Positions 2-43,133 of a stretch of 43,133 nt of DNA are shown piece by piece. Source of the DNA: a virus. The stretch's first letter is position 1; each line of letters begins with the position of its first letter. The position numbers were made by a program, and so were the translations under genes. The notes under the pieces are model-generated. The model saw only the letters and a program-made list of their open reading frames with translations, was not told the origin of the DNA and did no database searches. The DNA lies in IMG/VR virus record IMGVR_UViG_3300024433_000014, positions 1 to 43,133 of that record; one strand, given 5' to 3'.

Positions 2-1336
2 CTTAATTATCCTACTTATACCACCTTGACCCTCGATGCCGGTGGTGCGGCAACTGACATCGGTGATGGTATAGTAGGATTGCCCTGTGCGGGTAATCCA
101 TTCATAGAGGGACAGGTTATAAGAATAGAAGGCACAACCAACTATGACGGTGAGCAAACTTTAACATCCGGTGCGACCGCAAGTGAATTGCAATTTACGG
201 ATAGTTTCGTAACGGAGAGTTTTGACGGCACTGAAACGGTAGTTCAATATATAAGTTTGTCGGCCAGTGCAAACAGGATGGATCAGGATGATAATAATAT
301 CAGGTATTTTGGCCACAATATTATTTCCAGTAATTGCATAACAAAAGTTTCGCAAGATGGCATGACGATTGATACTTCCTTTTTTACACCGGGTACGGCC
401 TTTGCGGGCACTACCTGTCTGGGAATTAAGGTATCGACAAATAGTGAGTATCTTTACGCCTATACCGATGGAAGGCAATTATATAAATTTGATTTATCAG
501 ATGGCAGTGAAGTTTGGATGGTCAGCACGGGAACTTCACCCGGTTACGATATAGACATAGACGAAAGTGATAATGTTTATGTATGCAAGCAGGGAACTTC
601 ATACACGCTTTCTAAATTTGCCGCCGCCGATGGCACTGAAACGGACATGACGGATATGGGAGGAGCTACGGGCACCGAAGGAGGTTTTGACGTTCATGTT
701 GATAACGATATGGATGTCGTATTGGTCGGAGGTTACGACTATAAAATTGGCAATGATACAGGCCTCTATAATTTGGCCATAAGGACTTTGGATAACTCCG
801 ACGGGGCACAAACAGCGCTTGGCGGAACTTATGAAGCCGCCCCCCTCTGGATGACTTATACAATTGGCACACAATGTATAAAGACCTACGGTAGCTATAT
901 TTATGTTCTATGCAATGATATTGTCTATAAACTTGATTCAGAATTAAATACCATAGCGCAAGTTAATGCCCCTACTTATAACAGTGGTCTTTTCATTGAT
1001 TTACGGGGAAATATCGTAGTAATCAATCAGCGCGGAACCCAGAACGATGTATTTTGGTTTTATGACACTGGTTTGAACTATTTGACTAAAATCGACGGTT
1101 TTTATACCACAATGTTAAATACCTGGAATAATTATACATGGATGAAAGGAAATGTGGTATTCGATGGTGCGCTCGAAATACCCGGCACGCCAGCCGTTCC
1201 CGCCGTGGAGGCTTTTAGTAACGGTCTTGCAGATGTGCCACCGGCGAGATTACTTTCATTCGATTATCCTAAGGAAGATTCTTACGTCATCGAAGCCGGG
1301 GCAGGATATATGCGATTTTATAAGGATGTGCCATGA
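2..1336 (+). CDS. Nozzle (tail tubular B-like) N-terminal portion with beta-propeller-like region, left end cut off
   Basis: The frame is open from the first bases, so the true start lies outside the window. The middle (about residues 85-360) has repeated short beta-strand blocks such as YLYAYTDGRQLYKFD and YIYVLCNDIVYKLD, which suggest a PQQ/WD-like propeller. The first 70 residues resemble the small beta domain (FCCH-like) often found in phage nozzle proteins. The last 30 residues (ARLLSFDYPKEDSYVIEAG, then GYMRFYKD) match a stretch that in related phage tail proteins runs directly into the next gene's GSPYAIGTPY segment. I therefore read this as the N-terminal half of a split nozzle protein. 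Its stop overlaps the next start (ATGA), so translation is probably coupled. The propeller assignment is only by visual pattern. Confidence 0.6.
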   Translation, partial: LNYPTYTTLTLDAGGAATDIGDGIVGLPCAGNPFIEGQVIRIEGTTNYDGEQTLTSGATASELQFTDSFVTESFDGTETVVQYISLSASANRMDQDDNNIRYFGHNIISSNCITKVSQDGMTIDTSFFTPGTAFAGTTCLGIKVSTNSEYLYAYTDGRQLYKFDLSDGSEVWMVSTGTSPGYDIDIDESDNVYVCKQGTSYTLSKFAAADGTETDMTDMGGATGTEGGFDVHVDNDMDVVLVGGYDYKIGNDTGLYNLAIRTLDNSDGAQTALGGTYEAAPLWMTYTIGTQCIKTYGSYIYVLCNDIVYKLDSELNTIAQVNAPTYNSGLFIDLRGNIVVINQRGTQNDVFWFYDTGLNYLTKIDGFYTTMLNTWNNYTWMKGNVVFDGALEIPGTPAVPAVEAFSNGLADVPPARLLSFDYPKEDSYVIEAGAGYMRFYKDVP

Positions 1337-3627
1337 GATACTTACTGATTCTACTCTTATCGTGTTCGAGCGCCTTTGGGCTTGGCGCCCGGATTATGCA
1401 GGATGGCAGTCCTTACGCCATCGGAACGCCGTACCGTGCTGAAGATTTGTTTGAAATTCAATACGTTCAGTCCGGGGACGTTATGTACCTCGTACACAAC
1501 GAATACGCGCCGCGCAAACTATCGCGATATGGCGATACAAACTGGACAATGGAGGCCCTGGACTTTACGGGCGGGCCTTTCTTGACGGAGAACATCACTG
1601 AAACGAGCACTATCGAGCCATCGGCCAAGACAGGGACTATTACACTGACCGCGACTGCGGATACCTTCGAGGCCGGTCACGTTGGGGCGCTCTGGCGGAT
1701 AAATCATCTTGTGGACTCCAATAGTATCAATGGAGAGTTCACCAGTGCAACAAGCTCAACTACGTTAGAGGTTCAGAACGGCAGGATATTCGATTTGACT
1801 ACGGAAAATGTCTGGGATGGCTCGATAAAACTCGAACGCTCTTATGACGGTACGAATTGGCGCGATGCGTCCCGACTATTCAAGATAAACACTATAAATG
1901 ACGGTAACATCCAATATACGGACCAAGAGACCATAGCAAACGCTACTTACAAGGTTACTGCAACGGCTTACGTTACCGGCACGATAGGATACACTTTGAG
2001 CGCCCGGAGCGGGGTTTTCGGAGGGATAGTAGAGATAGCTACCGTAGGGGATGCCCGGCACGCCACGGCCACGGTAGAGACGGATTTCGACCTTGTAAAT
2101 ACCGCGGCGACTTTTAGATGGTCGGAAGGTGCGTGGTGTACGAAAAACGGCTTCCCCGGCTCTATCGCCTTTTTCGAGGAGAGACTTGTCTTCGGAGGTA
2201 GTAAATTACAGCCCGATACTATATGGGCCTCCCAAACGGACGATTGGTCAGATTTCTATTTTGACGGTCTGGCTACCGGCGCAATCAGTTTCACTATGGC
2301 GTCCGACCAGGTAAATCAAATCCAATGGCTGGTAGGGCATACCTCGATACTGATAGGAACGAGCGGGGCCGAATGGAAGTTAAGGGGCAAGGATGGGCCT
2401 TTGACCTTCGATAATTTCGATATGACCCGTCAATCAACCAATGGCAGCGCAAAAGTCCAGCCGGTAGTCGTTAATAGCAATATCATATACGCCCAGAGGA
2501 ACGCCGAGACTATTTATCAGCAGCAGTTCGCATTCGAGCGGGACAACTGGCTCAGTATAGATATGAGCCTGATTGCGGAGCATATAACCGATGGCGGCAT
2601 TACGGAGATGGCATATCAGAGGACGCCGAGGAACATCCTGTGGCTGGTCAGGTCGGATGGAACGCTGCTCGGAGTTACCTTGGAGGAATCCCAGCAAGTC
2701 GTTGGCTGGTACAGATATACCTTTGACGGCGATTGCGAGAGCGTGGCAGTTATTCCAGGAACGGGCGAGGACCAGGTCTGGGTAATTATCAAGAGGACGA
2801 TTGACGGTGAGGTAACGAGATACGTAGAGCAATTTCAACCGGTCGAATATGACAATCAGGAGGACGGCTTTTTTGTGGATTCCGGCCTGACCTTCACCGG
2901 CGATGGGCCATTTACTGTTACCAGTATAACCCAGACCGACCCTGCGCTCGTAACGGCCACAGACCATACGTTCTCAGACGGGGACCAGATAAGATTCTCA
3001 AGCGTAGGCGGAATGACTGAAGTCAATTACGTTGTTTTTACGGTAGGGCCGGTTACGGGAAGTACATTTGAATTGAGGGACTCTACTGATGATGTTGATG
3101 TTAATTCGGTTGATTTTACGGAATATACATCCGGCGGGGCCGTCGAGCAGGTCGAAAACAATTTCACAACTATTACTCATTTAGAGGGGGAAACAATAGT
3201 TACAAGCGGCGACGGCGGCTATGCCGGTGCCTATACGGTATCTTCCGGGACGATAACTCTTGATGATTTTTATAACAAAGTTCACGCAGGCCTTTCTTAT
3301 ACGGCAAAGTTAAAACCTATGAACCTTGAGTTTGCAACTACCGGCGGGGCGCTTCAGGGTCTGACAAAGAGAATCAATGCAACAAATATCAGGTTCGACA
3401 GGACTTTGAGTTGCTCGGTAGGCCCGACATTTGATAAATTCGATACATACGTATTCAGAACTATGGCCGACCCGTTAGAATCAGCCCCACCGTTATTCAG
3501 TGGTGATAAGAGAATGCTCTTTGACGGGCCTTTTGACAGGGAGGGTGCGCTCTGTATTCAGGACAACTTGCCGTTACCTTTAACGATAATAGCGATTATA
3601 GCGGAATATGAGGTAGGAAGAAATTGA
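1333..3627 (+). CDS. Nozzle / tail tubular protein B-like, C-terminal portion with a signal-peptide-like leader
   Basis: 764 residues. Residues 25-80 carry the hallmark block of phage nozzle proteins (GTPYRAEDLFEIQYVQSGDV, then MYLVH, APRKLSRYG), and GFPGSIAFFEERLVFGGSK follows near residue 270. About residues 510-610 form an FCCH-like beta domain. The protein should form the distal tail tube beneath the adaptor. Oddly, it opens with MRYLLILLLSCSSAFGLGA, a short basic n-region, hydrophobic core and LLSC lipobox-like or AxA-like end. This is a Sec-type leader that family members do not normally have at this point. The ATG at 1333 overlaps the previous stop. An in-frame ATG at 1396 would remove the leader but has no ribosome site. 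Confidence 0.85.
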   Translation: MRYLLILLLSCSSAFGLGARIMQDGSPYAIGTPYRAEDLFEIQYVQSGDVMYLVHNEYAPRKLSRYGDTNWTMEALDFTGGPFLTENITETSTIEPSAKTGTITLTATADTFEAGHVGALWRINHLVDSNSINGEFTSATSSTTLEVQNGRIFDLTTENVWDGSIKLERSYDGTNWRDASRLFKINTINDGNIQYTDQETIANATYKVTATAYVTGTIGYTLSARSGVFGGIVEIATVGDARHATATVETDFDLVNTAATFRWSEGAWCTKNGFPGSIAFFEERLVFGGSKLQPDTIWASQTDDWSDFYFDGLATGAISFTMASDQVNQIQWLVGHTSILIGTSGAEWKLRGKDGPLTFDNFDMTRQSTNGSAKVQPVVVNSNIIYAQRNAETIYQQQFAFERDNWLSIDMSLIAEHITDGGITEMAYQRTPRNILWLVRSDGTLLGVTLEESQQVVGWYRYTFDGDCESVAVIPGTGEDQVWVIIKRTIDGEVTRYVEQFQPVEYDNQEDGFFVDSGLTFTGDGPFTVTSITQTDPALVTATDHTFSDGDQIRFSSVGGMTEVNYVVFTVGPVTGSTFELRDSTDDVDVNSVDFTEYTSGGAVEQVENNFTTITHLEGETIVTSGDGGYAGAYTVSSGTITLDDFYNKVHAGLSYTAKLKPMNLEFATTGGALQGLTKRINATNIRFDRTLSCSVGPTFDKFDTYVFRTMADPLESAPPLFSGDKRMLFDGPFDREGALCIQDNLPLPLTIIAIIAEYEVGRN

Positions 3628-9200: not shown

Positions 9201-11375
9201 CAGGAAGTCAAGCCTGCTAAAGAAAAAGTTACCGAATGGACAGGATTGCTCGGCGCGTTTCGGTGGATTGAGGTAGAGGGACAATCTCAGATGAGGTCTC
9301 TTGTCGGTCTGGTCACCGGCAAGAATTACGATGCTACTATGAAGATTCTCGTCCACGAGCCTAATAAGACAAATATCGACCGCAAGGGAAAATATAAAGA
9401 TTTCATAATGCACTTTAGAAAGTTGGCGGACAAAGCCAATTTGAAATGGAAGGATGTAAAAAAGTTCAACGAACGGATTAAGATTAAATTAGGCGGCAAG
9501 GAGATAGAGACCGATTATGCAAGTTTATTAAGTATATTAGCGCACATCGAAGCCGAAGGCAATCTGCGACAATTATTGAAAACGAAGGGACTAAATATAA
9601 CGGTCTATGCTCGTGATGAGCATGGTTTTATCACTAAGAAGAATATCTATCGAGTTGGTACGCCCACTTTGGCGGAACTACGGGCGATAATGGAACTCGT
9701 ACCGGAAGCACACAAAAAACTTTTGAATGTCTATTTCAAAACGAACTGGGAAAAACAAGCTCCTGCCATAAATGAAATGTCGATGAAGCATGTAAATTAC
9801 GACCTTGCCGTAAAAAAGAAATATTTCCATATTAACCGCGAAATAGAGAGGGCGGTAGAAGGCAAGAAAGCAGATATATCCGTTTCCATTGACCAGCAAA
9901 GTCGAGGATTGCCCCGAACTGGTGGCACTGCCAGAATCAATATAGTATCATTCCCGCTTGAAGTCATGGAAACTATGCAGTGGAGCGCCGCTTATGCCAC
10001 TATGACAGAGGCAATGGAGAATGCCCGAACATTGGTAGCCAATCCCAAGTGGCGCGAGGCAATGAAACAGGCCGGTAATCAAAGGGCGCTGAAAGAAATA
10101 ACTACTCTGTTGCGCCGCGCCCAGGGGTTGATTACAGACCAATCAGTTCTCGAAGCGATGGCAGGAAAACATTTACGTCAGATTGGAAAAAGTATTCTCA
10201 GTCTCAGATTTAGTGGCGGCTTTGTTCAAACGGCAAGTATGCCCGCGGCAGTAGAATTTATCGGCAAGAAATATTTATTTAACACGGATTTTTCTACGCC
10301 TGCCTTAATTAAGCATTTGAAAAATATCGACCCTGTTTTATGGTTGAGATGGGAAGGAAAGCAATTTGATTATGCGCTTGGCATGGTAGGAGCGCAGAAT
10401 GCTTTTGAGAAATTATTATTTGACCATACACCGCTCACAGATAAATTTTTAGGGCAGTATACAATAGGTGATGAGATAGCTATTGGTAAATTATTTATGG
10501 GGGCTGAAAGACATATAGAAGATACAACAAAATTGAAAAAAGTACGAACGGAAAAAGGAAATACTGAATTTGAAAAAGCAACTTTGGATTTATTGCACGA
10601 GGCAATGACCACGCAGCCACAGTGGGATATGCTTCATCGAACACCTATAACGTCCGACCCAAGCATGTTTATACGGCCTTTTACTATGTTCAGGTCGGCG
10701 ATAATTGCTCAACGTAACGTTTTAGTCCGAGCAGTGGATGATTATTTCTTTAAGGGTAGAATAACTTTAGAACAATTTGCTGAGCGGTTTACTGGTGTGG
10801 GAATGTCAGTTGTTCTTGTGACTGTTTCGAGGCATCTATTTAAGACGTTAGTGTTTGCAGGAGCAACAACCGCCCTTGTGGCTATGGGTTTAAGAGAACC
10901 GCCGGACGAGGAAGAGATAAAAGAGGAAGCCACTAAACTTGTCAAGAAAATCGGCATCCAATCGGTCTTTACTTTTGTCGGACTTGACATCATAGGCTCC
11001 TTATTTGCCAGTATGGGTTATAAGACATTGCAGGTAAGGAAATACGGTTGGGGGATGGGCGATTATGGTGATATACGAACAGGGAATATAATTGCTGATG
11101 TAACTTTAGACATTATGCAAACAGGCGTAGATTTTGCTTTATTTACAGAACAACTAATTAGTGGCGAAAAATATAAAAGCGGAAAGAATAGGGGTCGTTA
11201 CAAGTGGGAAATAACCGGACTAAGATTGATTGATGAAATTGCAGCATTATTTGCGTATAGATATGGCTTGCCTTACGAAGGTCCGAAGTCGGATATAATC
11301 TGGCCGGTAAAAAAAGCATTGCCAGAAAAACCAAAAACCTTAGCAAGAAGAAAGGAAGTAAGATATGAACCTTAA
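6189..11375 (+). CDS. Giant internal virion (ejection) protein, gp16-like
   Basis: 1728 residues, by far the largest gene. The N-terminal 420 residues contain helical and hydrophobic segments. About residues 430-790 form a lysine/proline/glutamate linker with repeated KPE/AEP blocks. The C-terminal half is helical. Two likely membrane segments lie near residues 1535-1565 and 1595-1620 and are followed by a basic tail. Length, position and composition match the large ejection protein of T7-like phages. I see no transglycosylase catalytic motif at the N-terminus, unlike T7 gp16, so wall digestion is not supported. The stop overlaps the tail-fibre start. Confidence 0.65.
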   Translation: MPQSLKELDFSVIEKKPALGELDFSALEQPDFGMAAIPKKELPGVWEYDKQLDDLFSGETELEDMLPLDVRYDFGRIIGMTERPDEARAKMVNSLYYTVQLGIPPETAFNMTNELNKIWFGEKKLPLQPGKLFAQSFIQSMADKPAMMLKGLEVYTPGTGKVDMLLEKSATFLQSLKDPKTAEKLQQARAGKLWPVSKYAKWHQVQAKYLPEVINAWATNIGDQIPIMLITWAGRLMGKAVGEPVGTATAAAWATATGGLDPTDVATAPLVKTITSEIIKHLGGAAPLVAMEAGFFMDEAETLKIDKDISEKYAKMYGLGSGAIEYAQWLWVLGRYKAITKPAQKTIMRQVLTHIGGSAVEGMEEISQEGLQNWLLQKAVADMKERHLEYEGVAPKTWEGWKRSGAIGAGVSFITAMPGTGLTMAQGRTARRNIVKPETKMPEVVEVKAPPTEAEKAPSEAAEAITTKIDRLQAEIDIFVEKGQKPPAELISEINAAKKELRQKPLEITGIRAKVLGKAEIAPTAKPEADVRDEMKDFFAGLYRDKYQITPPKITKGKDGIWIRTPDAPTKGGIFIEAEDWQKNKQFYETYLEDADERVIKAAKPEAVGVAPEVKAEPAIVEKKTLAEIKKETPEERKYFTDLLLDERERIFNEAKGYIDQFGPDVLVQDFQPRINEIDKDLRRRGYNPAILPKLGPELKKAIAEGWVPVKAKEKLKAEPVKVEKPKESTKPGVSLLGGVPVEAPGLTRDEIQHLGKREQEALRAAQRRGLKVGYKQGAAETIADARRSLDAFRIKEAISQKGKMDVASVVLTYVPKEKQGDYIRRILQAKTQKRIERLTEAIDKYLDKYEKRQAVRGFKDFVKGIKKKYRRGEVALGQLPSKLRESLIEVLDKFDLAKISEKKEETFESRLKFVTRISGELANGFEGLNTEFDKDATDLLMMGKARIEELRRLGQTYIGDLDVDNIKYIQASLEHLLKINDLKGKSKERRRMENLRTDINNARQEVKPAKEKVTEWTGLLGAFRWIEVEGQSQMRSLVGLVTGKNYDATMKILVHEPNKTNIDRKGKYKDFIMHFRKLADKANLKWKDVKKFNERIKIKLGGKEIETDYASLLSILAHIEAEGNLRQLLKTKGLNITVYARDEHGFITKKNIYRVGTPTLAELRAIMELVPEAHKKLLNVYFKTNWEKQAPAINEMSMKHVNYDLAVKKKYFHINREIERAVEGKKADISVSIDQQSRGLPRTGGTARINIVSFPLEVMETMQWSAAYATMTEAMENARTLVANPKWREAMKQAGNQRALKEITTLLRRAQGLITDQSVLEAMAGKHLRQIGKSILSLRFSGGFVQTASMPAAVEFIGKKYLFNTDFSTPALIKHLKNIDPVLWLRWEGKQFDYALGMVGAQNAFEKLLFDHTPLTDKFLGQYTIGDEIAIGKLFMGAERHIEDTTKLKKVRTEKGNTEFEKATLDLLHEAMTTQPQWDMLHRTPITSDPSMFIRPFTMFRSAIIAQRNVLVRAVDDYFFKGRITLEQFAERFTGVGMSVVLVTVSRHLFKTLVFAGATTALVAMGLREPPDEEEIKEEATKLVKKIGIQSVFTFVGLDIIGSLFASMGYKTLQVRKYGWGMGDYGDIRTGNIIADVTLDIMQTGVDFALFTEQLISGEKYKSGKNRGRYKWEITGLRLIDEIAALFAYRYGLPYEGPKSDIIWPVKKALPEKPKTLARRKEVRYEP

Positions 11376-12669
11376 AAAAACAATTCTAATGAGTCTATTC
11401 TTGGTTGGTATATGCTGGGCTACCGTCACTGACAATTACGTTCCTGCTCACTTTACTGGCAATGGCAGTACGGTGGACTTTGACTTTCCGTGGCCTATTG
11501 TGGCCACCTCTGACGTAGTGGTAATAATCAGAACGATAGCAACGGGAGCCGAGGACGTCTTAACGGAGACGACAGATTATTCCATAAGCGCCGTCAATAA
11601 CGATTATAGCTCCGGCGGGACGGTAACGACTGTAGCTACCTATACGTCAACTTCGCAGATTAGTATTCTTCGAGATACGCCCCCAACACAAAATACCGGA
11701 CTGGTCGTATCGGGTTCAAACGTATTGAGAGAGGATTCCCTTGAGGACGCCTATGATAAGTTGACTTTGCTCGTCCAGCAGTTGCTTGAAGAAAACGCTC
11801 GGCAGATTACGATACCCAGAAGCGATGTTGATATTACAGTCGAACTGGATGATTCTGTATCTCGCGCCGATATGATTTTAGGCTTTGATAGCGACGGACA
11901 CGTAACCGCTCTAACCAGTATCCCGGAAGGAAGTATTTCGGTAACGGCCTATATGACAACGGTTAATGCCGCCGCCGATGCGGATGCCGCCAAAGTCCTT
12001 CTGGAAATTCCAACGATAGATGCCTTTGCAGAGACCTACCTCGATGATACGACTGCTGCTTTAACCCGTACAACTTTAGGTGCAGTGGGTTTGACGGGTG
12101 ATGAGACCATTGCGGGTACAAAGACATTTTCGAGCGCTGTCATATTCTCCGTCGCCTCAACGCTTGCTGACAGTTCGCAACTTGCCTCCAGCGCAGCGCC
12201 TACGGCGGATGCGGACATATCCAATAAGAAATATTGCGATGACCAGCACTTACCTTATGCCCGGATGTACTGCACGGCCGCGCAAAATAACCTTTCAGAC
12301 ACCACTTGGACAACCATTACATTGGACACGGATACATTTGATTCCGGTACTATCACCGACCTGGCCAATTACAAGATTACCCCTGCCGTAGCGGGTCAGT
12401 ATTTGGTCTGTGGCCAGATTACATATACCAACACGATTGCGAACAAGACTTACTATGCACAGATTTATTTCAATGCGACTTCTGCCAAAGCGATTGCTTC
12501 GTCCCATACCGGCGATGCGACCACAGATATTACCGTTTCGGTGTGTGATGTAATTGTATTTGACGCAGACGACTATATTCAACTCAGAGGTCAGGTAAAC
12601 GCGGGAGTCGATACCGTTGATATAAACGTAGGTTCGACAGACACTTATTTAGTATTGTATAGATTATAA
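11365..12669 (+). CDS. Tail fibre with T7-type N-terminal anchor and a Sec-type leader
   Basis: 434 residues. Residues about 22-150 match the T7 tail-fibre N-terminal domain: FTGNGSTVDFDFPW, VIIRTIATG, TDYSI, ISILRDTPPTQNT, then LREDSLEDAYDKL. This domain joins the fibre to the tail. A short helical linker and a C-terminal beta-rich, probably receptor-binding, domain follow. The anchor domain is preceded by MNLKKTILMSLFLVGICWA, a complete signal peptide with an AxA-like end. The ATG has a strong AAAGGAAG site, and no other in-frame ATG gives the bare domain. Its N-terminus overlaps the giant ejection gene by 11 bases. Confidence 0.85.
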   Translation: MNLKKTILMSLFLVGICWATVTDNYVPAHFTGNGSTVDFDFPWPIVATSDVVVIIRTIATGAEDVLTETTDYSISAVNNDYSSGGTVTTVATYTSTSQISILRDTPPTQNTGLVVSGSNVLREDSLEDAYDKLTLLVQQLLEENARQITIPRSDVDITVELDDSVSRADMILGFDSDGHVTALTSIPEGSISVTAYMTTVNAAADADAAKVLLEIPTIDAFAETYLDDTTAALTRTTLGAVGLTGDETIAGTKTFSSAVIFSVASTLADSSQLASSAAPTADADISNKKYCDDQHLPYARMYCTAAQNNLSDTTWTTITLDTDTFDSGTITDLANYKITPAVAGQYLVCGQITYTNTIANKTYYAQIYFNATSAKAIASSHTGDATTDITVSVCDVIVFDADDYIQLRGQVNAGVDTVDINVGSTDTYLVLYRL

Positions 12670-13394: not shown

Positions 13395-13847
13395 ATGAAA
13401 AAATTAGTTGTGTCATTGTTAGTGGTATTGTGTCTATGTCTGCCCGCCCAGGCTAATATTTACAGCTGGATTTGGGGCGACAGCGATGCGGTCGGAGCGA
13501 GGTTAGGTACTGACCTCGCGGAAAATATCGAAGTGGGTGTTTCGGCCCTCTGGTTCCCAGACCAGGAAGCGCCGGAAATTTGGGGAATGTACGGTATTTA
13601 TCACTTACCGGAAATTGTGCAATTCCCCAACCCGATTATCCTGGAGTTCTTGCCGGAGACTATAAAAGGCAAGCCGTATTTTGGCGGAAAGCTCGACATT
13701 GACTTTGAGATTGATAAGGCAAGGGTCTCAATAATTGCCGGTATTGTATTCGAGGATATTCTTTTCATTGAGTACAATTTTGAGTCAATCGACAGGAGCT
13801 CTTACAATGATAGCAAAATTCTTTTTGGGTTGAGAATTAGATTTTGA
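13395..13847 (+). CDS. Exported protein resembling an outer-membrane beta-barrel
   Basis: 150 residues. MKKLVVSLLVVLCLCLPAQA is a clear Sec signal peptide with an AQA cleavage end. The mature part is rich in alternating strands (VSIIAGIVFEDILFIEYNF) and ends LFGLRIRF. A C-terminal phenylalanine in a final amphipathic strand is the usual targeting signal for outer-membrane barrel insertion. In a lysis-region context it could alter the cell surface, for example by excluding superinfecting phage, but this is inference. A good AAGGAG site precedes the start. Confidence 0.6.
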   Translation: MKKLVVSLLVVLCLCLPAQANIYSWIWGDSDAVGARLGTDLAENIEVGVSALWFPDQEAPEIWGMYGIYHLPEIVQFPNPIILEFLPETIKGKPYFGGKLDIDFEIDKARVSIIAGIVFEDILFIEYNFESIDRSSYNDSKILFGLRIRF

Positions 13848-26467: not shown

Positions 26468-26807
26468 GGACAAGCAGAGAGAGGCCAACAGGAAGGCTAA
26501 ACAGAGGCAACGGGCTAAATGTGGTATTGATGATATACCGCCCAGTAAGCGTGAGCAAGATTTAATAACAAAAGGTATGACTAAACAGGGTATGACAGTA
26601 ACAAGCAGCCCCTCAAACGTCATACCCAAGCGAGGCAAGGATATCAAGTGCTTCGCGGACCTGCCGCCGGACGTGCAAGAGACTATCAATGCGATGAGTA
26701 TGGACTGTGACCCAGTTGTAGAAGCGCAAAACAAAGCGATGAGGACAGTCATAGCTCTTGGCTACCAACACCTATACCCGGACAGATATTATTCGACAGG
26801 TATGTAA
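26454..26807 (+). CDS. Conserved small protein before the terminase
   Basis: 117 residues from ATG 26454. The opening MYKDKDKQREANRKAKQRQR is a basic helix found in many phage proteins located between small and large terminase genes. The rest holds a DLPPDVQETINAMS segment. The last stop base is shared with the next ATG (TAATG), so translation is coupled. It may bind DNA in packaging, which is inference. Confidence 0.5.
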   Translation: MYKDKDKQREANRKAKQRQRAKCGIDDIPPSKREQDLITKGMTKQGMTVTSSPSNVIPKRGKDIKCFADLPPDVQETINAMSMDCDPVVEAQNKAMRTVIALGYQHLYPDRYYSTGM

Positions 26808-28180
26808 TGAAGCGCAGAGAGTTCTTAAAAGCAAGCGCAGCAGCAGTTGCAGTTGGAGCTGGTTGGATCGCGGACCTGTCAGCTGCCAGCGACGACGATA
26901 TAGACTACATTGGCGGCAAGATACTCGGATATAAGCCGTTACCAGCCCCGGCGGCTTTCCACAGGAGTCAGGCAAAGTTTCGCTGGATAATGGGTGGGAG
27001 CAGGTCCGGCAAGTCTGAAAGCAATATCGGGTATGATTTATGCTCATTTGCGATAGGGATACACCCGTTTCGTAAAACCCCCAAGAAGGCCACAATATGG
27101 GCTGTAGCTGATTCCTGGCCGTTAGTGGGTAAACTACTGTGGGGTGAGAAGGTCAAGGACTATTTGCCTTCTGAGCAGATAAAAAGGATAATCTGGCATA
27201 ACACACGAGAGGAAATACCTAAAGAGATACAGTTAGTCAACGGTAATAAAATTGAGTTTAAGTCGGGTGAGCAAGGTCGTAAGGCGTTTGAAGGTCGTCC
27301 GTTACATGCTATCTATCAAGACGAGCAGCTAAGCGGAGACTCTGTGGGTATCTTTACTGAGATACAGGCCCGGCTACTGGATTATCATGGATTCTTTGCT
27401 GGTAGTATGACACCCATTCAGCCCCAGCCTTGGCTTGAGGAGCGGGTAATTAACTTACCGCCAACTGATGAGATATTCTATGCCAACTTGAATGACAACC
27501 GTAGGAGTCGGGGCGGATACATTCCCGATGCAGAGATTGATATGATGATAGCTGACTGGCCCGCCGAGGTGCAACAGACAAGAATTGAAGGCTATTTCGC
27601 TGCCTTCTTTGGCGCCGTCTATAAGACGTTTAGCCGCAAGGTCCACGTCTGCAAGCCGTTCAAGATACCTAACGACTGGCAGCGATACCGGGCTATCGAC
27701 TGGGGCTTCAACAATCCATTTGTCTGTTTGTGGATGGCAAGAGACCACGATAATCGCTGGTATGTGTATAATGAGCATTACGCGGCCCAGCAGACATTAG
27801 CCTACCACGCGGCGGAGATTAAGCGAATAAGCGGCAAGGAGCGATATCGCGTTACGTGGGCGGACCACGAGGCCCAGGAGCGGCACGAGTTCAGGCAATT
27901 GGGTATAGATACCATGCCGGCTAAGAAGGACAGGCATTTGGGCATTGAGGTTGTCCGGGCGGCTCTTAAGGTACAGGGCGACGGCAGGCCGAGGCTACAG
28001 ATATTCGATACTTGCAAGCACACGATTAAAGAGATGGGAGGCTATAAGTGGGCTGAAGGCAACGAGACGAGGGATGCAAAGGATGAGCCGTTGCAACTCA
28101 ACGACCACACTTGCGATTGTGTGAGGTATGGTATCTACGGCGTTGACCACAAGGGCTATTTTAGTAGGCTGGTGGCATAA
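26807..28180 (+). CDS. terL: Terminase large subunit with a Tat-type signal peptide
   Basis: 457 residues. Walker A GGSRSGKS at 63-70, Walker B-type IYQDEQ at about 169-174, then a C-terminal nuclease domain beginning RYRAIDWGFNNP (D298) with WADHE (D353) and CDCVRYG near the end. It packages DNA by ATP-driven translocation and cuts it. The N-terminus is MKRREFLKASAAAVAVGAGW, then IADLSAA: a twin-arginine motif (RREFLK), hydrophobic core and AxA-like end. No alternative start codon exists in frame before Walker A, and the ATG is fixed by TAATG coupling. A Tat leader on a packaging motor is highly unusual. Confidence 0.9.
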   Translation: MKRREFLKASAAAVAVGAGWIADLSAASDDDIDYIGGKILGYKPLPAPAAFHRSQAKFRWIMGGSRSGKSESNIGYDLCSFAIGIHPFRKTPKKATIWAVADSWPLVGKLLWGEKVKDYLPSEQIKRIIWHNTREEIPKEIQLVNGNKIEFKSGEQGRKAFEGRPLHAIYQDEQLSGDSVGIFTEIQARLLDYHGFFAGSMTPIQPQPWLEERVINLPPTDEIFYANLNDNRRSRGGYIPDAEIDMMIADWPAEVQQTRIEGYFAAFFGAVYKTFSRKVHVCKPFKIPNDWQRYRAIDWGFNNPFVCLWMARDHDNRWYVYNEHYAAQQTLAYHAAEIKRISGKERYRVTWADHEAQERHEFRQLGIDTMPAKKDRHLGIEVVRAALKVQGDGRPRLQIFDTCKHTIKEMGGYKWAEGNETRDAKDEPLQLNDHTCDCVRYGIYGVDHKGYFSRLVA

Positions 28181-30414: not shown

Positions 30415-30545
30415 AGAAAAAAACTTTATTTGGTGACATTTTGATTTTACTACTTATTTTTGTAGTTTTATGTTTTATTGCTTTTGTAATTTTTTGTATA
30501 GGCGGAAAGATATTCTAAATGTTTAATTGGCGGATGTGCTATGAA
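30396..30545 (+). repeat. 20-base perfect direct repeats bounding the 30411 gene
   Basis: ATTGGCGGATGTGCTATGAA at 30396-30415 and 30526-30545, each holding a gene's start codon. The first copy also contains the stop of the 30040 gene. Confidence 0.85.
30411..30518 (+). CDS. 35-residue membrane peptide
   Basis: MKKKTLFGDI, then a long hydrophobic stretch to GGKIF. One membrane segment. The gene is enclosed exactly by two 20-base repeats, so it is likely an inserted cassette. Confidence 0.5.
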   Translation: MKKKTLFGDILILLLIFVVLCFIAFVIFCIGGKIF

Positions 30546-30891
30546 ACGTAGAGACTTTCTATTAGGTACGATTTGTGGCGGTTTGTGGAGCTTGTTTCCT
30601 TTCAAGAAAAAACAAGTCCAAGCGGATACTTGTGACTCCATTGGAGATGAGATTACAAAAAAGCCTAAAATTATCAACTTTGGAAGTATACTTGGTTTAA
30701 TTTATGATGATGAGCTTGTCTTTGGTACTTGGGAATATTCTTGGTTTTCAAACTTTGAGCACTATGGAGTCTTTTCCCCTCGTGTTTGTTTTGACTTTTA
30801 TCATTACACTGGTCCTCGTTATATAAGGGCTCATGTATTTGGTTTGTATGCGGAAGAAATATTTGATACGTGGAAAAAAACATTTGAATGA
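30541..30891 (+). CDS. Exported protein with a Tat-type leader
   Basis: 116 residues. MKRRDFLLGTICGGLWSLFP with RRDFLL, a short hydrophobic core, a basic stretch (KKK) and a VQA end predicts Tat export. The mature domain is aromatic (ELVFGTWEYSWFSNFEHYG) and cysteine-poor. No family is recognised. Second Tat-type leader in the late operon after the terminase. Confidence 0.6.
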   Translation: MKRRDFLLGTICGGLWSLFPFKKKQVQADTCDSIGDEITKKPKIINFGSILGLIYDDELVFGTWEYSWFSNFEHYGVFSPRVCFDFYHYTGPRYIRAHVFGLYAEEIFDTWKKTFE

Positions 30892-37009: not shown

Positions 37010-40000
37010 ATGAAACGCATATTTTTCATAACACTCCTGATAGTGGCCCTGACGCTGCCTCTAATGGGTCAGGGCGCTACTCAATGGAACATCTACCAAC
37101 GGCCTACTGCTGATTGGTTCAGCGCCGGTAGTCCGAGGGATATAGGCTGGCAGTGGGCGATGGCGATAGACCGTTTAGTTGCGGCAGGCGGTAAAGTTGG
37201 AACCGGCTCTATCTTTTATGTCGATTCCAATGTTACGAATGAAGGTGACGGTTCCAGTTGGGCTAACGCAACAGACACCTTAGATGAAGCAATTAACCTG
37301 TGTACTGACGATGCCGGAGATATAATCTACGTTGCAGAAGGTCACGTCGAAACCTGGACAACCACTACCGGTGATGACGTTGACGCCGACGTTCCTGGAA
37401 TTTCAATCATCGGTTGTGGTCAAGGCGAGCACAGGCCGCAATTTGTTTATGGCGATGTGGATGCCGACTTTGTTATCGGTGACGCCTCTATTCTAATTTC
37501 CAATCTTAGATTTATGGCCAGCGTTGATAGTGTCGTTAATATAATCGAAGTCGAAGCTGATGCCGATGGTTTCATAATCTACAATTGCGAGTTTATGGAA
37601 CCTGAATCAGGAGATGCCACAGACGAATGTGACGACATCATCCAGGTAGCTGCCGGTGCCAACCAAGGTTTTATTATTGGTTGCACATTTTATTCGGCTT
37701 CTGCCGGAGCTACCACAGCAATTGACTTAGATGCCGGTGTCATTGAGGATATTACGATTGCCTATAACACTATTATAGGTGACTTTTCACAAGCGGGTAT
37801 CTTCTCTGATGATATTGATTTGAGGGCAAGAATTGTCGGGAATGTAGTAACCAATACTAATGCCACTGGTTTTGGTATTGAGTTTGATACGACGGCGACG
37901 GGCTGGATGATAGATAACACCGTTGCCTCCAAGAGCATATCTTACATGATTGACCCTGGTAATATGATGTGTAGTGGTAATGAATGGGTAGATACCGACG
38001 GTGATACCTTAGCTGCTGTTCAGATGTTTACTTCGACTACGGGAATAGATACTTTCAGCGCTTCGGAAACGACACAGATGACAGCTGCCACTACTACGGC
38101 AATAGAAGCCGACCATTTAGACCATCTTGCCGCTGTTTCAGTGGATGATGAGATTGCCAACGAATCTTTTCTTGCCGATATAACATCCAAGACGCAGGAT
38201 TGGAGCACATTCGTTGCTGGAGACGATTCTTTGGAGGCAATCTCGGATGCTATCGGCGCTTTATCCGGTGTCGGTTTTCGTGGAACGGCTACAAGTGCAG
38301 GCGCTACTGCTACCTTCATTAGTACGGGTCTTGCCGGATTCGGTAACGACTATTTCAATACGAACTGGAAGATGATTATCGTCTATGATGCCGGTACTGC
38401 AGGCGCGGCTCCGGAAGGAGATATACGTGATATTGTAGATTATGTCTCAGGTACAGGAACATTCACAGTCGCTCCGGTATGGTCAGGCAGTACATCAACG
38501 GCAGAGGGCGATATGGCCTATGTCGTTCGCGACCAGGACTTGAATCCCAATACCGTTACTATTCTTGGTGGTTCCGACAAAATCACCTATGTTAATTCTG
38601 CCGTTGCCGGCACTCCTGATGTAGGTGACCTCGGCGATACTTGGGACTTGGCATATCCAACCATTACCGCCGCTCTTGACGTCGCAGTTACAAGCGGTGA
38701 GGTTATCTATGTCGCTCCTGGTCACTCTGAGACGGTTTCTGCTGCTTATTCGATTGATGATGCCGGTGTTTCGATTATTGGTCTCGGTGAAGGCAGCTTG
38801 CAACCGTTAATCACATTCGATAATATTGATGCACAGTTAGATATTACTGTCGCTGATGTCTTGATTGAGAACATCAGAATAGAATCGCAACTCGATAACG
38901 TCAAAATTGGTATTGACATTTCCGGCACAGGTGACGGCGCTCATATAAAGAATTGCCGATTTACCAACGAGACTTCCTCTGATGAGCTTCTTATAGCTAT
39001 TAACCTGACGACCGACTCTGATGATGTAATCATCGAAGGCTGTACGTTCCTGTCAACCGGTGCTGCATCGACTGAGTGTATCAAGGTGGTTACCGGTGCT
39101 TGTGACAATCTCCAAATCCTGAACAATTGGATTAGAGGAGATTACACCGTAGCAGCTATCTGGAGCGACCAAGCGCTCACAGACTGTTTGATTGCAGGCA
39201 ATGTAATCCATCAGGAAACGGCAAGTCAGCACGCCATCGAGCTTACATCTACGGCGGTAGGAGCAATAGTCAATAACAGGCTCTATGCCGATGATTACGG
39301 CTCAATACTTGACCCTGGTAGTTGTCTTTGTACTGGAAATTTAGCAGTTGATGCTCTTGACCAGCAGGCAATTGTCATCCCCTTGAGCGCTGAAACCACA
39401 GATGTCTTAGAAGAGGATGACGGTTCCGACCTTGAGCGTCTTGAATACCTTCAGAACAAATCTGATGACATTCTTGCAATGCTGAGGTCAACAGGTGGAA
39501 GTTTGGGCGATGTTTTTTATGTCGATGATGGCGGCTCTAACGGCACGGGAATAGATTGGGCTACGGCAAAGACTACTATTGCTGCCGGTTATGCCCTTGC
39601 CTCGGCTGGGGATATTGTCTTTGTCGGTCCTCAGCATGCCGAGACACTTTCAGATGGCACGGCCTTAGCCACCGCAGGCGTGAAAGTAATTGGTCTCTGT
39701 GATGGTGATTTGCGGCCTACGATCACCTTTAATTCAACTGACGACCAATTCGACATTGGTGCTGCTGATAATGTATTTGAGAACCTCAGGTTGTATTCAT
39801 CGACAGCCGATACGACTATTGCCTTCGATATTGCCGATGCCGGCGATGGCACTGTAATCCGCAACTGTGAGTTTACAAACGCAAGCGGATTTGAGTTTTT
39901 GGATGCGATTGATGTCAAAGGCTCCGCCGACCGTGTAACCATTGAGGGTTGTTCGTTTATCAATACTGGTGGAGCTGATGCTACATCCGCAATCCAGGCA

Positions 40001-40729
40001 ACTGCAGGCGTTTGTAACCGGTTAAGTATTATTGGCTGCTATATCTTTGGCGCTTATGACGCTGCGGGTATTTATAGCGATGACATTGATACGCTTGTAT
40101 TGATTAAAGACAATATTATTCACAACACCCAGACAGGCGTTCACGCCATTGAATTTTCCGCCGCTGCAACAGGAGAGGCTATCGGTAATAAGATGTATAG
40201 TGATACCTACGGCGTCGGCTTTGACCCTGGCTCTATGGCGTGTTTTGGGAATAAGCATGTCTATGCGACTGATATGGGAGCTGTTGACGTTCCTCTTGTT
40301 CCTGGTAAGCAATACACGTTGATGGCTGCACCAGCAAGTATTCTTGCTGCTTCCGACCCGGTTTTTACCATAGCTGGCGGGCCAATTCTAATCGTTGATT
40401 TTTATGGTGTCGTGACCTCACAAGTTGGTAATTCCGACCTTACAGTCCAGTCTATTGACACGGCAACTACTACTACGTTCCCTTATTCGAGTACGGTTAC
40501 ATGTGATGGTGACGTAGTAGGCACTACCTACACCTTTACTGGAGCTGTACCAAGTGTTCTTACACCACTTGCAGGTGCACACAACCGTAGTGGCACGCCT
40601 CCTATACAATGGTATGCTCCGATAGGCAATGTAGAAGTTCTTGGCGATGCAGCAGTGGTAGGAATAGTTGAATGGTACATGACATTTATACCTCTAACTA
40701 CCGGCGTTGTTGTCACTGATGCTACCTAA
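37010..40729 (+). CDS. Triplicated right-handed beta-helix protein with a signal peptide
   Basis: 1239 residues. MKRIFFITLLIVALTLPLMG, then QGA, is a Sec-type leader. Three homologous modules start at about residues 62, 520 and 840 with FYVDSN / ITYVNSA / VFYVDDG, each continuing through an IIYVAEGHVET-type block, a VSIIGLGEG-type turn and a ladder of hydrophobic strands (NCEFM, NCRFT, GCSFI). This is the pattern of parallel beta-helices in tail spikes and adhesins. The C-terminus is a compact beta domain. It could decorate the head or bind the host surface. AGAAAGGTAAAAAA precedes the start. Confidence 0.7.
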   Translation: MKRIFFITLLIVALTLPLMGQGATQWNIYQRPTADWFSAGSPRDIGWQWAMAIDRLVAAGGKVGTGSIFYVDSNVTNEGDGSSWANATDTLDEAINLCTDDAGDIIYVAEGHVETWTTTTGDDVDADVPGISIIGCGQGEHRPQFVYGDVDADFVIGDASILISNLRFMASVDSVVNIIEVEADADGFIIYNCEFMEPESGDATDECDDIIQVAAGANQGFIIGCTFYSASAGATTAIDLDAGVIEDITIAYNTIIGDFSQAGIFSDDIDLRARIVGNVVTNTNATGFGIEFDTTATGWMIDNTVASKSISYMIDPGNMMCSGNEWVDTDGDTLAAVQMFTSTTGIDTFSASETTQMTAATTTAIEADHLDHLAAVSVDDEIANESFLADITSKTQDWSTFVAGDDSLEAISDAIGALSGVGFRGTATSAGATATFISTGLAGFGNDYFNTNWKMIIVYDAGTAGAAPEGDIRDIVDYVSGTGTFTVAPVWSGSTSTAEGDMAYVVRDQDLNPNTVTILGGSDKITYVNSAVAGTPDVGDLGDTWDLAYPTITAALDVAVTSGEVIYVAPGHSETVSAAYSIDDAGVSIIGLGEGSLQPLITFDNIDAQLDITVADVLIENIRIESQLDNVKIGIDISGTGDGAHIKNCRFTNETSSDELLIAINLTTDSDDVIIEGCTFLSTGAASTECIKVVTGACDNLQILNNWIRGDYTVAAIWSDQALTDCLIAGNVIHQETASQHAIELTSTAVGAIVNNRLYADDYGSILDPGSCLCTGNLAVDALDQQAIVIPLSAETTDVLEEDDGSDLERLEYLQNKSDDILAMLRSTGGSLGDVFYVDDGGSNGTGIDWATAKTTIAAGYALASAGDIVFVGPQHAETLSDGTALATAGVKVIGLCDGDLRPTITFNSTDDQFDIGAADNVFENLRLYSSTADTTIAFDIADAGDGTVIRNCEFTNASGFEFLDAIDVKGSADRVTIEGCSFINTGGADATSAIQATAGVCNRLSIIGCYIFGAYDAAGIYSDDIDTLVLIKDNIIHNTQTGVHAIEFSAAATGEAIGNKMYSDTYGVGFDPGSMACFGNKHVYATDMGAVDVPLVPGKQYTLMAAPASILAASDPVFTIAGGPILIVDFYGVVTSQVGNSDLTVQSIDTATTTTFPYSSTVTCDGDVVGTTYTFTGAVPSVLTPLAGAHNRSGTPPIQWYAPIGNVEVLGDAAVVGIVEWYMTFIPLTTGVVVTDAT

Positions 40730-40788: not shown

Positions 40789-40902
40789 ATGGCTAAAGCA
40801 GGAGTTCCAAAACGAAATGGTTCCGGTCGCGGTGTCCGCGCAAATCGCGGGCGCGGCGGCTGCAAGACGACCCGAAAAACCGGCAGAGGAAGACAAAGAT
40901 GA
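40789..40902 (+). CDS. 37-residue arginine/glycine-rich peptide
   Basis: MAKAGVPKRNGSGRGVRANR, then GRGGCKTTRKTGRGRQR. Almost no acidic residues. The composition suggests DNA or RNA binding, possibly DNA condensation in the head. TTAGGAGTTAAATT precedes the start, and the end overlaps the next ATG. Confidence 0.55.
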   Translation: MAKAGVPKRNGSGRGVRANRGRGGCKTTRKTGRGRQR

Positions 40903-41741
40903 AACGATTTATATTGTTGCTATCACTTCTTATAGGGAATGTCTGCTATTCTGCTGCAATAGTTCAGTACAAGCTCAATGATAACACCGATACTGACGTT
41001 GCTTTGGACTCGGTAGGCAGTCATAACGGGACAATTAGTGATGCCGGCGGTACGGCAACCTCAGTAGCTCATCATCATCCGGGACATATAGGCGGGGGAG
41101 CCTTCGAGTTCGATGGTACGGACGACCATATCATTATAAGCGACCATGCTGATTTTACCTTCTCCGGTGCATTCAGTATTTCCGTCTGGATAGAGGCGGA
41201 TTCGGTAAATGGTTTTCCAATAGCATCCAAGTATTCGAGTGGAAATGAGGAATGGCAGTTATGGTTAGATGGTTCTGGTTATCTTAGTTTCGCAATATTT
41301 GACGCAAGCGAGAGCGCCTATATCGGCAGATATTGCAATATATGCCAGGCTGGTATAGAAGGCATTTTTGCTCATATAGTTGCAGTCTATAATGGTGATA
41401 TTTTCTCGAATGGCTGCCGGCTATACGTCAACAATGTACAGGTGGATGATAGCGACTTATCAGCTAATCTCTTTGCTGCAATTGAGAATAAGGACGCTGA
41501 CGTAACAATTGGTTACGGCCACGATAACCTCGCCAGTCCCTTTGCCGATTATGCTGATGGTCGTATTGACAACCTGATTATATATGATGGTGAGCTTAAT
41601 AACAGCCAGATTAACGGTCTTTACAACGATTGGGCTGGAACTGAGGATGTATCTCTCAGTTCTTATGCGGGGAGTAGTATGCGGATAAGATACTCTAACG
41701 GCTATCGGTACAGATATAGAAATAGATACAATTTTGAATAG
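40899..41741 (+). CDS. LamG/concanavalin-type lectin-like protein with a signal peptide
   Basis: 280 residues. MKRFILLLSLLIGNVCYSA is a Sec leader. Residues about 20-245 show a LamG-like jelly roll: YKLNDNTDTDVALDSVGSHN, AFEFDGTDDHIIISDHADF, FSISVWIEAD, then RLYVNNVQVDDSD and GRIDNLIIYDGELN. Such domains bind carbohydrates. The tail is rich in arginine and tyrosine (SNGYRYRYRNRYNFE). Likely a surface-adhesion or glycan-binding protein. Confidence 0.75.
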   Translation: MKRFILLLSLLIGNVCYSAAIVQYKLNDNTDTDVALDSVGSHNGTISDAGGTATSVAHHHPGHIGGGAFEFDGTDDHIIISDHADFTFSGAFSISVWIEADSVNGFPIASKYSSGNEEWQLWLDGSGYLSFAIFDASESAYIGRYCNICQAGIEGIFAHIVAVYNGDIFSNGCRLYVNNVQVDDSDLSANLFAAIENKDADVTIGYGHDNLASPFADYADGRIDNLIIYDGELNNSQINGLYNDWAGTEDVSLSSYAGSSMRIRYSNGYRYRYRNRYNFE

Positions 41742-41750
41742 GAGAAAGAA

Positions 41751-42650
41751 ATGAGATACGGAAGAACAATCGTAGCGATTGCAATGCTGTTAGTTCTTGC
41801 AGTTGGGTCATTTATGTTCGTTTTGCCTCTGACAATGGCCGAGCCGGTGGACACTTATCATTCAAGATGGCATTTAGTTCGTGAGACGGCGGATGAAGAT
41901 GCCGCTGACTTTGCGACCGCTTATGACTTGACCGGTGTGGGAACTACTGACGGCGATTTTGCCAGTAAGGACACTTCGTCCGTCCTGGCTGGCGGGGCCT
42001 TCCAAATACGGTCAGCTAACGCCAGTTTCGGTCACGAAGGCTACTCGGCGGGCGGAGCCTGGATATTTGCCATCTGCGGCAGTAACTACGCCGACGTGGA
42101 TGATACCTTCAGCTTCGACATCATAGGTTGGAGTAAGACCAATGGTATGCTCCAGAAAATAGCCGAAGGCGATGGCGTTATTGGCACACAGGCGGTAGGA
42201 ATTTATCCTGATGGTGGTGACGCACACGGGGCGCTGATTAGTTTAACCAGCGTTGCATATACCCATTCTACAGAGACGTTTACCGAATCGGGCGAGTTTG
42301 GCGATGCCGCCGTGGGTATGATGGCGCGGGTGACGGGTACTGGCTTTACCAATGAGATAGTCGATATTACCACTGCAACGGCCAATACCGTTATCTGTGA
42401 TATTACTACATCAGCGACAGATTGTACTGACGCTACAATTCAGATAAATCCAGCCTTCTGGGCCGATACTATCAATCTCGACGCTACCACAAAATGGCCA
42501 TCTGTTGCTGTTTACAACTCAGGAAATAACCAGGTTTGCATTGTCTTAATAGATACGACCGGTTTGGAGTGGATACAATGGATTTTCTATGATGCTGGTG
42601 CAGGCAGTGGAGAGGCGGGTAATATTACAGTTTATGGGAGACGCTACTAA
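41751..42650 (+). CDS. Late protein with a signal-anchor leader, unknown
   Basis: 299 residues. The hydrophobic N-terminus (about 8-31) ends in LTMA|EPVD, a signal peptide or anchor. The remaining beta-rich part contains DDTFSFDIIGWSK and GMMARVTGTGFTNEIVDITT, a small phage beta-sandwich pattern that recalls the FCCH-like region of the nozzle. It abuts the adaptor gene, so a head-to-tail or tail-decoration role is plausible. TAGGAGAAAGAA precedes the start. Confidence 0.5.
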   Translation: MRYGRTIVAIAMLLVLAVGSFMFVLPLTMAEPVDTYHSRWHLVRETADEDAADFATAYDLTGVGTTDGDFASKDTSSVLAGGAFQIRSANASFGHEGYSAGGAWIFAICGSNYADVDDTFSFDIIGWSKTNGMLQKIAEGDGVIGTQAVGIYPDGGDAHGALISLTSVAYTHSTETFTESGEFGDAAVGMMARVTGTGFTNEIVDITTATANTVICDITTSATDCTDATIQINPAFWADTINLDATTKWPSVAVYNSGNNQVCIVLIDTTGLEWIQWIFYDAGAGSGEAGNITVYGRRY

Positions 42651-43133
42651 TGGCCACTTTCGACAAACTTTACATAGCCAACCGGATGATTTTAATGGTG
42701 GGTGGGGAGACTATCAGCACGTTTCCAGGCATTGCTACAAAGACTCAGCGAATTACCAAAATAATCTACGATGGCATCGTTAATGAGGTGTTCAGTTTCA
42801 ATATACCCTATAAATTTGCCACTACACGGGCGGAATTGAGCGAATTATCCACTACTCCTGCTTTTGGATGGGACCATCAGTTCGCCTTCCCAGCGGCCTG
42901 TGTGCGAATCCTCAGCACTGTTGACGAGGAAGGGGACGATATTCATTATCCTTACCGGCGGGAAGTGGTCTTAACAACCGCACGTGGCAGGACAGTCGAG
43001 ACCGACGTGCTTCTGACGAATCAAAATGAGGTCTTTGTTAGATACGTCTATCTCAGGGCAAATCCTGCTGCCTGGCCGGGCTGGTTTCAGAGACTCGTAA
43101 TCCTTCACGGGGCAATGCAGCTGGTGGCCCCAA
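42650..43133 (+). CDS. Tail tubular protein A (adaptor), right end cut off
   Basis: The ATG shares a base with the previous stop (TAATG). 161 residues are visible. The opening ANRMILMVGGETISTFPGIATK is followed by NEVFSFNIPYKFATTRAEL, then VFVRYVYLRANPAAWPGWFQ: the pattern of T7 gp11-like adaptors that join portal and nozzle. A full adaptor is about 190-200 residues, so roughly 30-40 are missing beyond the window. Joining to the window start would give only nine more residues (NLIILLIPP), which do not look like an adaptor end. Confidence 0.8.
   Translation, partial: MATFDKLYIANRMILMVGGETISTFPGIATKTQRITKIIYDGIVNEVFSFNIPYKFATTRAELSELSTTPAFGWDHQFAFPAACVRILSTVDEEGDDIHYPYRREVVLTTARGRTVETDVLLTNQNEVFVRYVYLRANPAAWPGWFQRLVILHGAMQLVAP

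Follow-up and report, generated by a model that had tools for sequence, protein, structure and literature searches.

The window analysed here, the entire IMG/VR record IMGVR_UViG_3300024433_000014 (43,133 bases, linear, end repeats absent), holds a podophage-type genome in which terminase, portal, scaffold-like, major capsid, adaptor, nozzle and T7-type fibre genes are present. Its nozzle chain is cut in two between positions 94 and 95 of the nozzle profile, and the same cut is found in a second phage, IMGVR_UViG_3300032931_000509 (39.5 kb; here called G012). The first part forms the end of open reading frame (ORF) 1 (2..1336; like all window features given below on the plus strand), and the second makes up ORF2 (1333..3627), which opens with a leader of the Sec type. 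An earlier note on this DNA had proposed that one ancestral nozzle gene has become two coupled frames at this place and that the second chain starts with a signal peptide; both proposals are borne out.

The position of the cut was determined with a profile built from an alignment of 137 single-chain nozzle N-termini, with which the window was searched in six frames. Profile positions 67-94 match the C-terminal end of ORF1 (1244..1327; E 5e-5) and positions 95-177 match ORF2 (E 5e-28), so that the cut lies exactly between 94 and 95 and nothing has been lost there. Aligned to single-chain homologues, as had been suggested, the two products thus fit complementary parts of one profile, and beyond them the search of the 43-kb window gave no further significant nozzle match. 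Among the PHROG models, phrog_20269 is divided in the same manner (47-92 in ORF1, 105-355 in ORF2), and phrog_376, a nozzle type matched by 210 phage records, is found in ORF2 (E 1.7e-163). ORF1 ends in ...PARLLSFDYPKEDSYVIEAGAGYMRFYKDVP-stop with GYMRFYKDVP as its last residues, and ORF2 starts in an ATGA (1333..1336) overlapping this stop, preceded by AAGGA (1322..1326) as its likely ribosome-binding site; AAGGT sits likewise before the corresponding gene C of G012. ORF2 reads MRYLLILLLSCSSAFGLGA, the leader (1333..1389), and then RIMQDGSPYAIGTPY, and the main nozzle body from position 95 to the end occupies 1390..3624. From the FYKD codon to the next nozzle codon 56 extra bases are counted. 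Their number is close to the about 60 inserted bases that had been claimed, but an insertion private to this gene is not borne out, because G012 shares the cut.

The ORF2 leader is 19 amino acids long and has a basic start, a hydrophobic core, no acid residues and small residues at a predicted cleavage site, features by which our own rule recognises Sec leaders. Among 630 ATG-started frames of the window six N-termini are as signal-like as this one, and all six start plus-strand genes (ORF2 and those at 13395, 33553, 37010, 40899 and 41751); a chance origin of the ORF2 leader is therefore unlikely. The loop that follows the cut (profile positions 99-103) carries inserted domains, mostly FCCH-like, in 25 of 148 relatives, which marks this part of the nozzle as permissive. 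Within ORF2 an E1_FCCH-like domain is present at 2950-3153 (Pfam E 4.8e-10), apparently the type of module that is found at position 99 in the nozzles of Pelagibacter phages.

ORF1, the N-terminal nozzle chain, consists mostly of a propeller-like domain of about 300 residues inserted between nozzle positions 66 and 67 (311..1201, limits approximate). Its repeats resemble Mala_s_1 (E 3.2e-5) and PQQ_2 (E 1.5e-3), both matches lying under the curated cut-offs. Positions 1-66 are absent from the window and would fall off the contig edge together with the 5' end of the gene; complete N-domains are seen in G012. One end of the contig lies inside ORF1 (from base 2) and the other inside the head-tail adaptor (phrog_394; 42650..43132), a leaderless gene that runs off the contig. 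As adaptor and nozzle genes tend to stand close together, the gap in the sequence is placed immediately upstream of the split.

ORF2 has the nozzle fold of propeller and platform according to its structure model. Built with 34 nozzle sequences, the model reached a mean predicted local distance difference test score (pLDDT) of 83, the leader being of low confidence, and its best structural matches are phage nozzles (8ck1, Z 26.7; 9efk, 23.2; 9k09, 19.9). The alignment with 8ck1 from phage Carin1 comprises 672 residues at a root mean square deviation of 5.9 and begins at residue 65 of 8ck1, whose first 64 residues have no counterpart in ORF2. Chains of T7 gp12 follow with Z 17-18, in a range (about 17-19) that also holds unrelated propellers. 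In T7 gp12 three strands of the C-terminal platform barrel, which is seated on the adaptor, belong to the N-terminal 45 residues (PMC6702177). A separate N-chain would accordingly contribute, as a second polypeptide, the strands that the platform of the ORF2 chain lacks, and strand complementation is probably the way in which one nozzle would be rebuilt, a step drawn by analogy with T7.

Relatives were found through terminase and capsid scans, while peptide-pattern scans of IMG/VR with ORF1 and with the adaptor gave no close relatives. The earlier note had advised looking for the same split in relatives, and G012 carries it; its major capsid protein is 53% and its nozzle body 53-55% identical to those of the window. 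There the nozzle is encoded by three successive genes with the same cut, all confirmed by the profile. Gene A (479 amino acids) has a leader, nozzle positions 1-66, a propeller, positions 67-94 and a stop; gene B (122 amino acids) a leader, positions 1-94 and a stop; gene C (785 amino acids) a leader and the nozzle from position 95 to the end. ORF1 is the orthologue of gene A (E 9e-19, 28% identity across propeller and nozzle tail). The ribosome-binding sites at the cut are similar in the two phages (AAGGTGAGCC-ATG and AAGGATGTGCC-ATG), as is the DNA before the starts of gene C (TTCTATAAATAAAGGTGAGCC-ATG) and ORF2 (TTTTATAAGGATGTGCC-ATG), and together with the common cut this makes it probable that the split predates both phages. 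A boundary shared by separate genes of the family speaks against an insertion unique to this gene, and the split nozzle itself stands. Leader and N-domain of genes A and B are identical at 47 of 93 aligned positions, by which the two look like tandem duplicates.

Three further loci, L291, L176 and L189, possess a single-chain nozzle with a leader ahead of a complete N-terminus, and the leader of L176 resembles that of ORF2 in a similarity test. The ORF2 leader is therefore probably the nozzle's own N-terminal leader rather than a stretch of unrelated inserted residues as first thought, although the resemblance to L176 is weak evidence because hydrophobic leaders are low in complexity. Lipid modification through the LLSC motif is not supported: measured against the lipobox L-[AST]-[GA]-C the motif is poor (L at -2), and none occurs in the nozzle leaders of L176, L291, L189 or gene C. 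A tree of nozzles places the window with L176 (Shimodaira-Hasegawa-like approximate likelihood ratio test 92), with a warning of long branches. The simplest history suggested by these sequences would be an ancestral gene of leader and nozzle whose 5' part was tandemly duplicated and whose last copy then lost its N-domain; such a history needs leader-bearing single-chain nozzles, and L291, L176 and L189 fit this part. At the position-99 loop the nozzles of L176 (5414-8449) and L189 (8204-11986) contain one or more apparent LamG-like inserts. Such a split and a nozzle leader are both absent from about 260 other nozzle loci, viral as well as bacterial. No leader and no split at this place were seen in 23 nozzle loci in cellular genomes of Desulfobacterota and Zixibacteria, the phyla of two bacterial matches. 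Locus L207 was considered as a second split on account of a short upstream frame and was rejected, as positions 38-94 stay in frame.

About nine leaders, that of ORF2 included, are present on this phage, which makes the phage group, and not this junction, the unusual unit. The other five of the six most signal-like starts belong to a 150-amino-acid protein (13395..13847), an 87-amino-acid protein conserved in L198 and L287 (33553..33816), a beta-helix-like repeat protein of 1239 amino acids (37010..40729), a LamG-domain protein (40899..41741) and a 299-amino-acid protein conserved in G012 (41751..42650), all with leaders of the Sec type. A slightly broader rule adds the T7-type tail fibre (11365..12669), which has a 19-amino-acid Sec-type leader ahead of its ancestral N-terminus, and twin-arginine translocation (Tat) leaders on the terminase large subunit (26807..28180) and on a 116-amino-acid protein upstream of the portal (30541..30891, MKRRDFLLG...). 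In a census of forward ORFs of at least 150 amino acids under one leader rule, 7 of the 22 ORFs of the window bear a leader, and 7 of the about 30 of L176 and L189 taken together. The other nozzle loci combined yield 7 of about 1,017 (p 2e-9 against the window), several of these seven being weak twin-arginine matches. The portal, scaffold, capsid, adaptor and gp14/15/16-like genes of the group are without leaders; one adaptor (L291) is weakly flagged by the rule and reads like an ordinary adaptor start. The fibres of Pelagibacter phages start where the leader of the window fibre ends, and a homologue of the beta-helix protein in the unrelated phage MW202647 is leaderless, whereas seven of seven homologues within the group (L287, L288/G012, L289, L290, L291, L189 and L176) possess a leader. 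From the leaderless homologues elsewhere it follows that the leaders are additions. Cysteine makes up 1.13% of the mature leader-bearing proteins versus 0.42% of the rest, with the beta-helix protein contributing most, which is weakly in line with an oxidising compartment.

Some observations on these genes stand apart. The beta-helix gene directly follows the capsid genes, and a spike, decoration or adhesin is conceivable. The pre-portal gene and a gene at the same place in L201 (6517-6888) share an RRxF(L) Tat-like start (RRDFLK in L201) with no BLAST match between them. Another nozzle locus, L222, encodes a lipoprotein-like protein (MKKRYLLFLLIPLFIIGCQSD...; 6101-6844) beside structural genes. 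A search for tRNA genes as host clues found none in the window.

The leader of the terminase, MKRREFLKASAAAVAVGAGWIADLSAA, scores 17.1 bits with TIGR01409 of NCBIfam (cut-off 16.7) and 19.1 with Pfam TAT_signal, under the cut-off of 22.7. The terminases of L151-L153 (84-86% identical) keep RRxFLK and the end of the leader, and L155 has RRQLLQ; a twin-arginine leader is thus kept in five phages, while that of a sixth (L156) is Sec-like and two others (L154 and L157) have none. Against L151-L153 the proportions of synonymous (pS) and nonsynonymous (pN) differences are.29-.74 and.08-.13 in the leader, and.60-.65 and.08-.10 in the body. This likeness to the body indicates that the terminase leader is translated and under purifying selection.

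Taken together, we consider it probable that ORF1 and ORF2 represent one split nozzle in which the N-chain joins the body, and that the leaders direct outer parts of the tail to the inner membrane or through it. ORF2 would be translated both from its own site and by coupling at the ATGA. In a hexameric nozzle the N-chain would join the ORF2 body non-covalently, and the adaptor-facing platform would receive its first strands from it. Both chains probably carry leaders, the start of ORF1 lying off the contig, and would meet in one compartment to form the nozzle. The split may let one phage mount N-domains with different adhesin-like modules on a common body; that N-domains are interchangeable in this way is suggested by the plain and propeller-bearing N-domains of G012. 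The distribution of the leaders follows the geography of the virion: nozzle, fibre, beta-helix and LamG proteins bear them, whereas proteins of the head, the portal, the adaptor and the ejection apparatus do not. This suggests membrane targeting of the tail parts. Nozzle chains, fibre and beta-helix protein would be brought to or across the inner membrane, and the distal tail, put together at the membrane, would meet DNA-filled heads there or at lysis. A wider scheme, which we put forward tentatively, is that a group of tailed phages assembles its virions in two compartments. Heads, complete with portal and adaptor, would be made in the cytoplasm, while Sec would carry the surface proteins and the distal tail, some of these proteins having Tat leaders, to or beyond the inner membrane, and the N-domains on the split nozzle would be swappable.

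Several points weigh against this explanation. The split is confined to two of the phages examined. The leader and positions 1-66 of ORF1 are off the contig and are probable by prediction from G012, and AlphaFold of ORF1 alone with no alignment gave no usable model (pLDDT 32). The nozzle leader of L291 would begin at a TTG in an overlap with the stop of the adaptor gene, with an in-frame ATG after the leader, which leaves it less certain. Leaders were scored by our own simple rule of hydrophobicity and charge, and cleavage sites were placed by eye. A Tat leader on an ATP-driven terminase misfits export for assembly. Finally, an exported nozzle would need to meet heads made in the cytoplasm, and we know of no tailed phage doing so.

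Another reading is possible, if rather doubtful: the nozzle is split all the same and the leaders are uncleaved membrane tethers, the proteins staying cytoplasmic at the inner membrane face where packaging and tailing take place. The conserved Tat leader of the terminase would be explained and fits tethering better than export, and nozzle chains could meet adaptor-bearing heads in the cytoplasm. However, motifs of the usual signal-peptidase kind close several of the leaders (ICWA↓T in the fibre, PAQA↓N in 13395, LSAA↓S in the terminase), and the beta-helix and LamG proteins resemble outer adhesins. Less likely still, the leader codons are captured translation-start modules, that is a ribosome-binding site with the first codons, whose peptide is tolerated and has no targeting role. 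Start regions do move along with the leader and ribosome-binding sites are present at the junctions; yet the terminase leaders keep RRxFLK despite diverged synonymous sites, and leaders are found on outer proteins and are absent from head proteins.

We give little credence to the view that ORF2 has left the virion as a secreted protein, for instance in a superinfection block, with ORF1 as a decayed fragment. The signal peptide would suit it, but nozzle identity and fold are retained, the 43-kb contig (though not closed) has no other nozzle gene, and in G012 the body gene is still accompanied by an intact chain with the plain N-domain. Ribosomal bypass or frameshifting over the 56 bases, which would yield one chain, is very improbable. 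The gap length is 2 modulo 3, as in the T4 gene 60 bypass, but there is no strong RNA fold at the gap (z +1.05) and no matching pair of take-off and landing codons save a GAT pair that would delete conserved residues. A separate ribosome-binding site moreover precedes both ORF2 and gene C of G012, where the N-chain is duplicated. An assembly or sequencing error is hardly credible even with a contig break nearby in ORF1, because the same split occurs in G012, a contig from another metagenome, and other parts of the phage, though not the junction, recur at 99.98-100% in contigs of sample 3300009529. These contigs (L150/L195 and L286) may come from the same phage and might serve to bridge the missing stretch.

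Tailed phages are commonly assumed both to produce and to put together their tail parts in the cytoplasm. A phage group whose nozzle, fibre and adhesin-like proteins bear conserved export-type leaders, and whose terminase has a Tat leader, runs counter to that view, and the place of tail assembly becomes testable. The split nozzle of ORF1 and ORF2 is in addition a natural case of a load-bearing tail part in chains that may be interchangeable. Missing signal peptides have been used as support for a phage and not cellular origin of proteins (PMC6199706), and signal peptides as described here would mislead virus/host classifiers. In the literature, with few subscription journals covered, no report was found of systematic export leaders on virion proteins of tailed phages or of a split nozzle.

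Among known systems, filamentous-phage coat proteins are also virion proteins with Sec export leaders; those phages are extruded through membranes, whereas the present phage is tailed and encodes a terminase, a portal and an adaptor. The bypass of T4 gene 60 likewise places about 50 bases between parts of one ancestral chain, but here there is no supporting RNA structure, the second part has its own ribosome-binding site and the split is conserved as separate genes. Nozzles of Pelagibacter phages accept a foreign FCCH-like domain at position 99, in the tolerant loop beside the cut; their inserts are in frame within one chain, while here the loop holds a gene boundary and the insert is at position 66. 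The closest likeness is to the podophage nozzle itself (T7 gp12, PDB 6r21; Cobetia phage Carin1, PDB 8ck1; PHROG 376) in profile, fold and neighbourhood, with the adaptor upstream and gp14/15/16-like ejection genes downstream. Known nozzles are one leaderless chain, whereas the nozzle here consists of two chains and that of G012 of three; signal-type leaders are present, and the N-domain contains a propeller. A single chain is the usual and not the defining state of a nozzle, and the departure described here is a variant of it.

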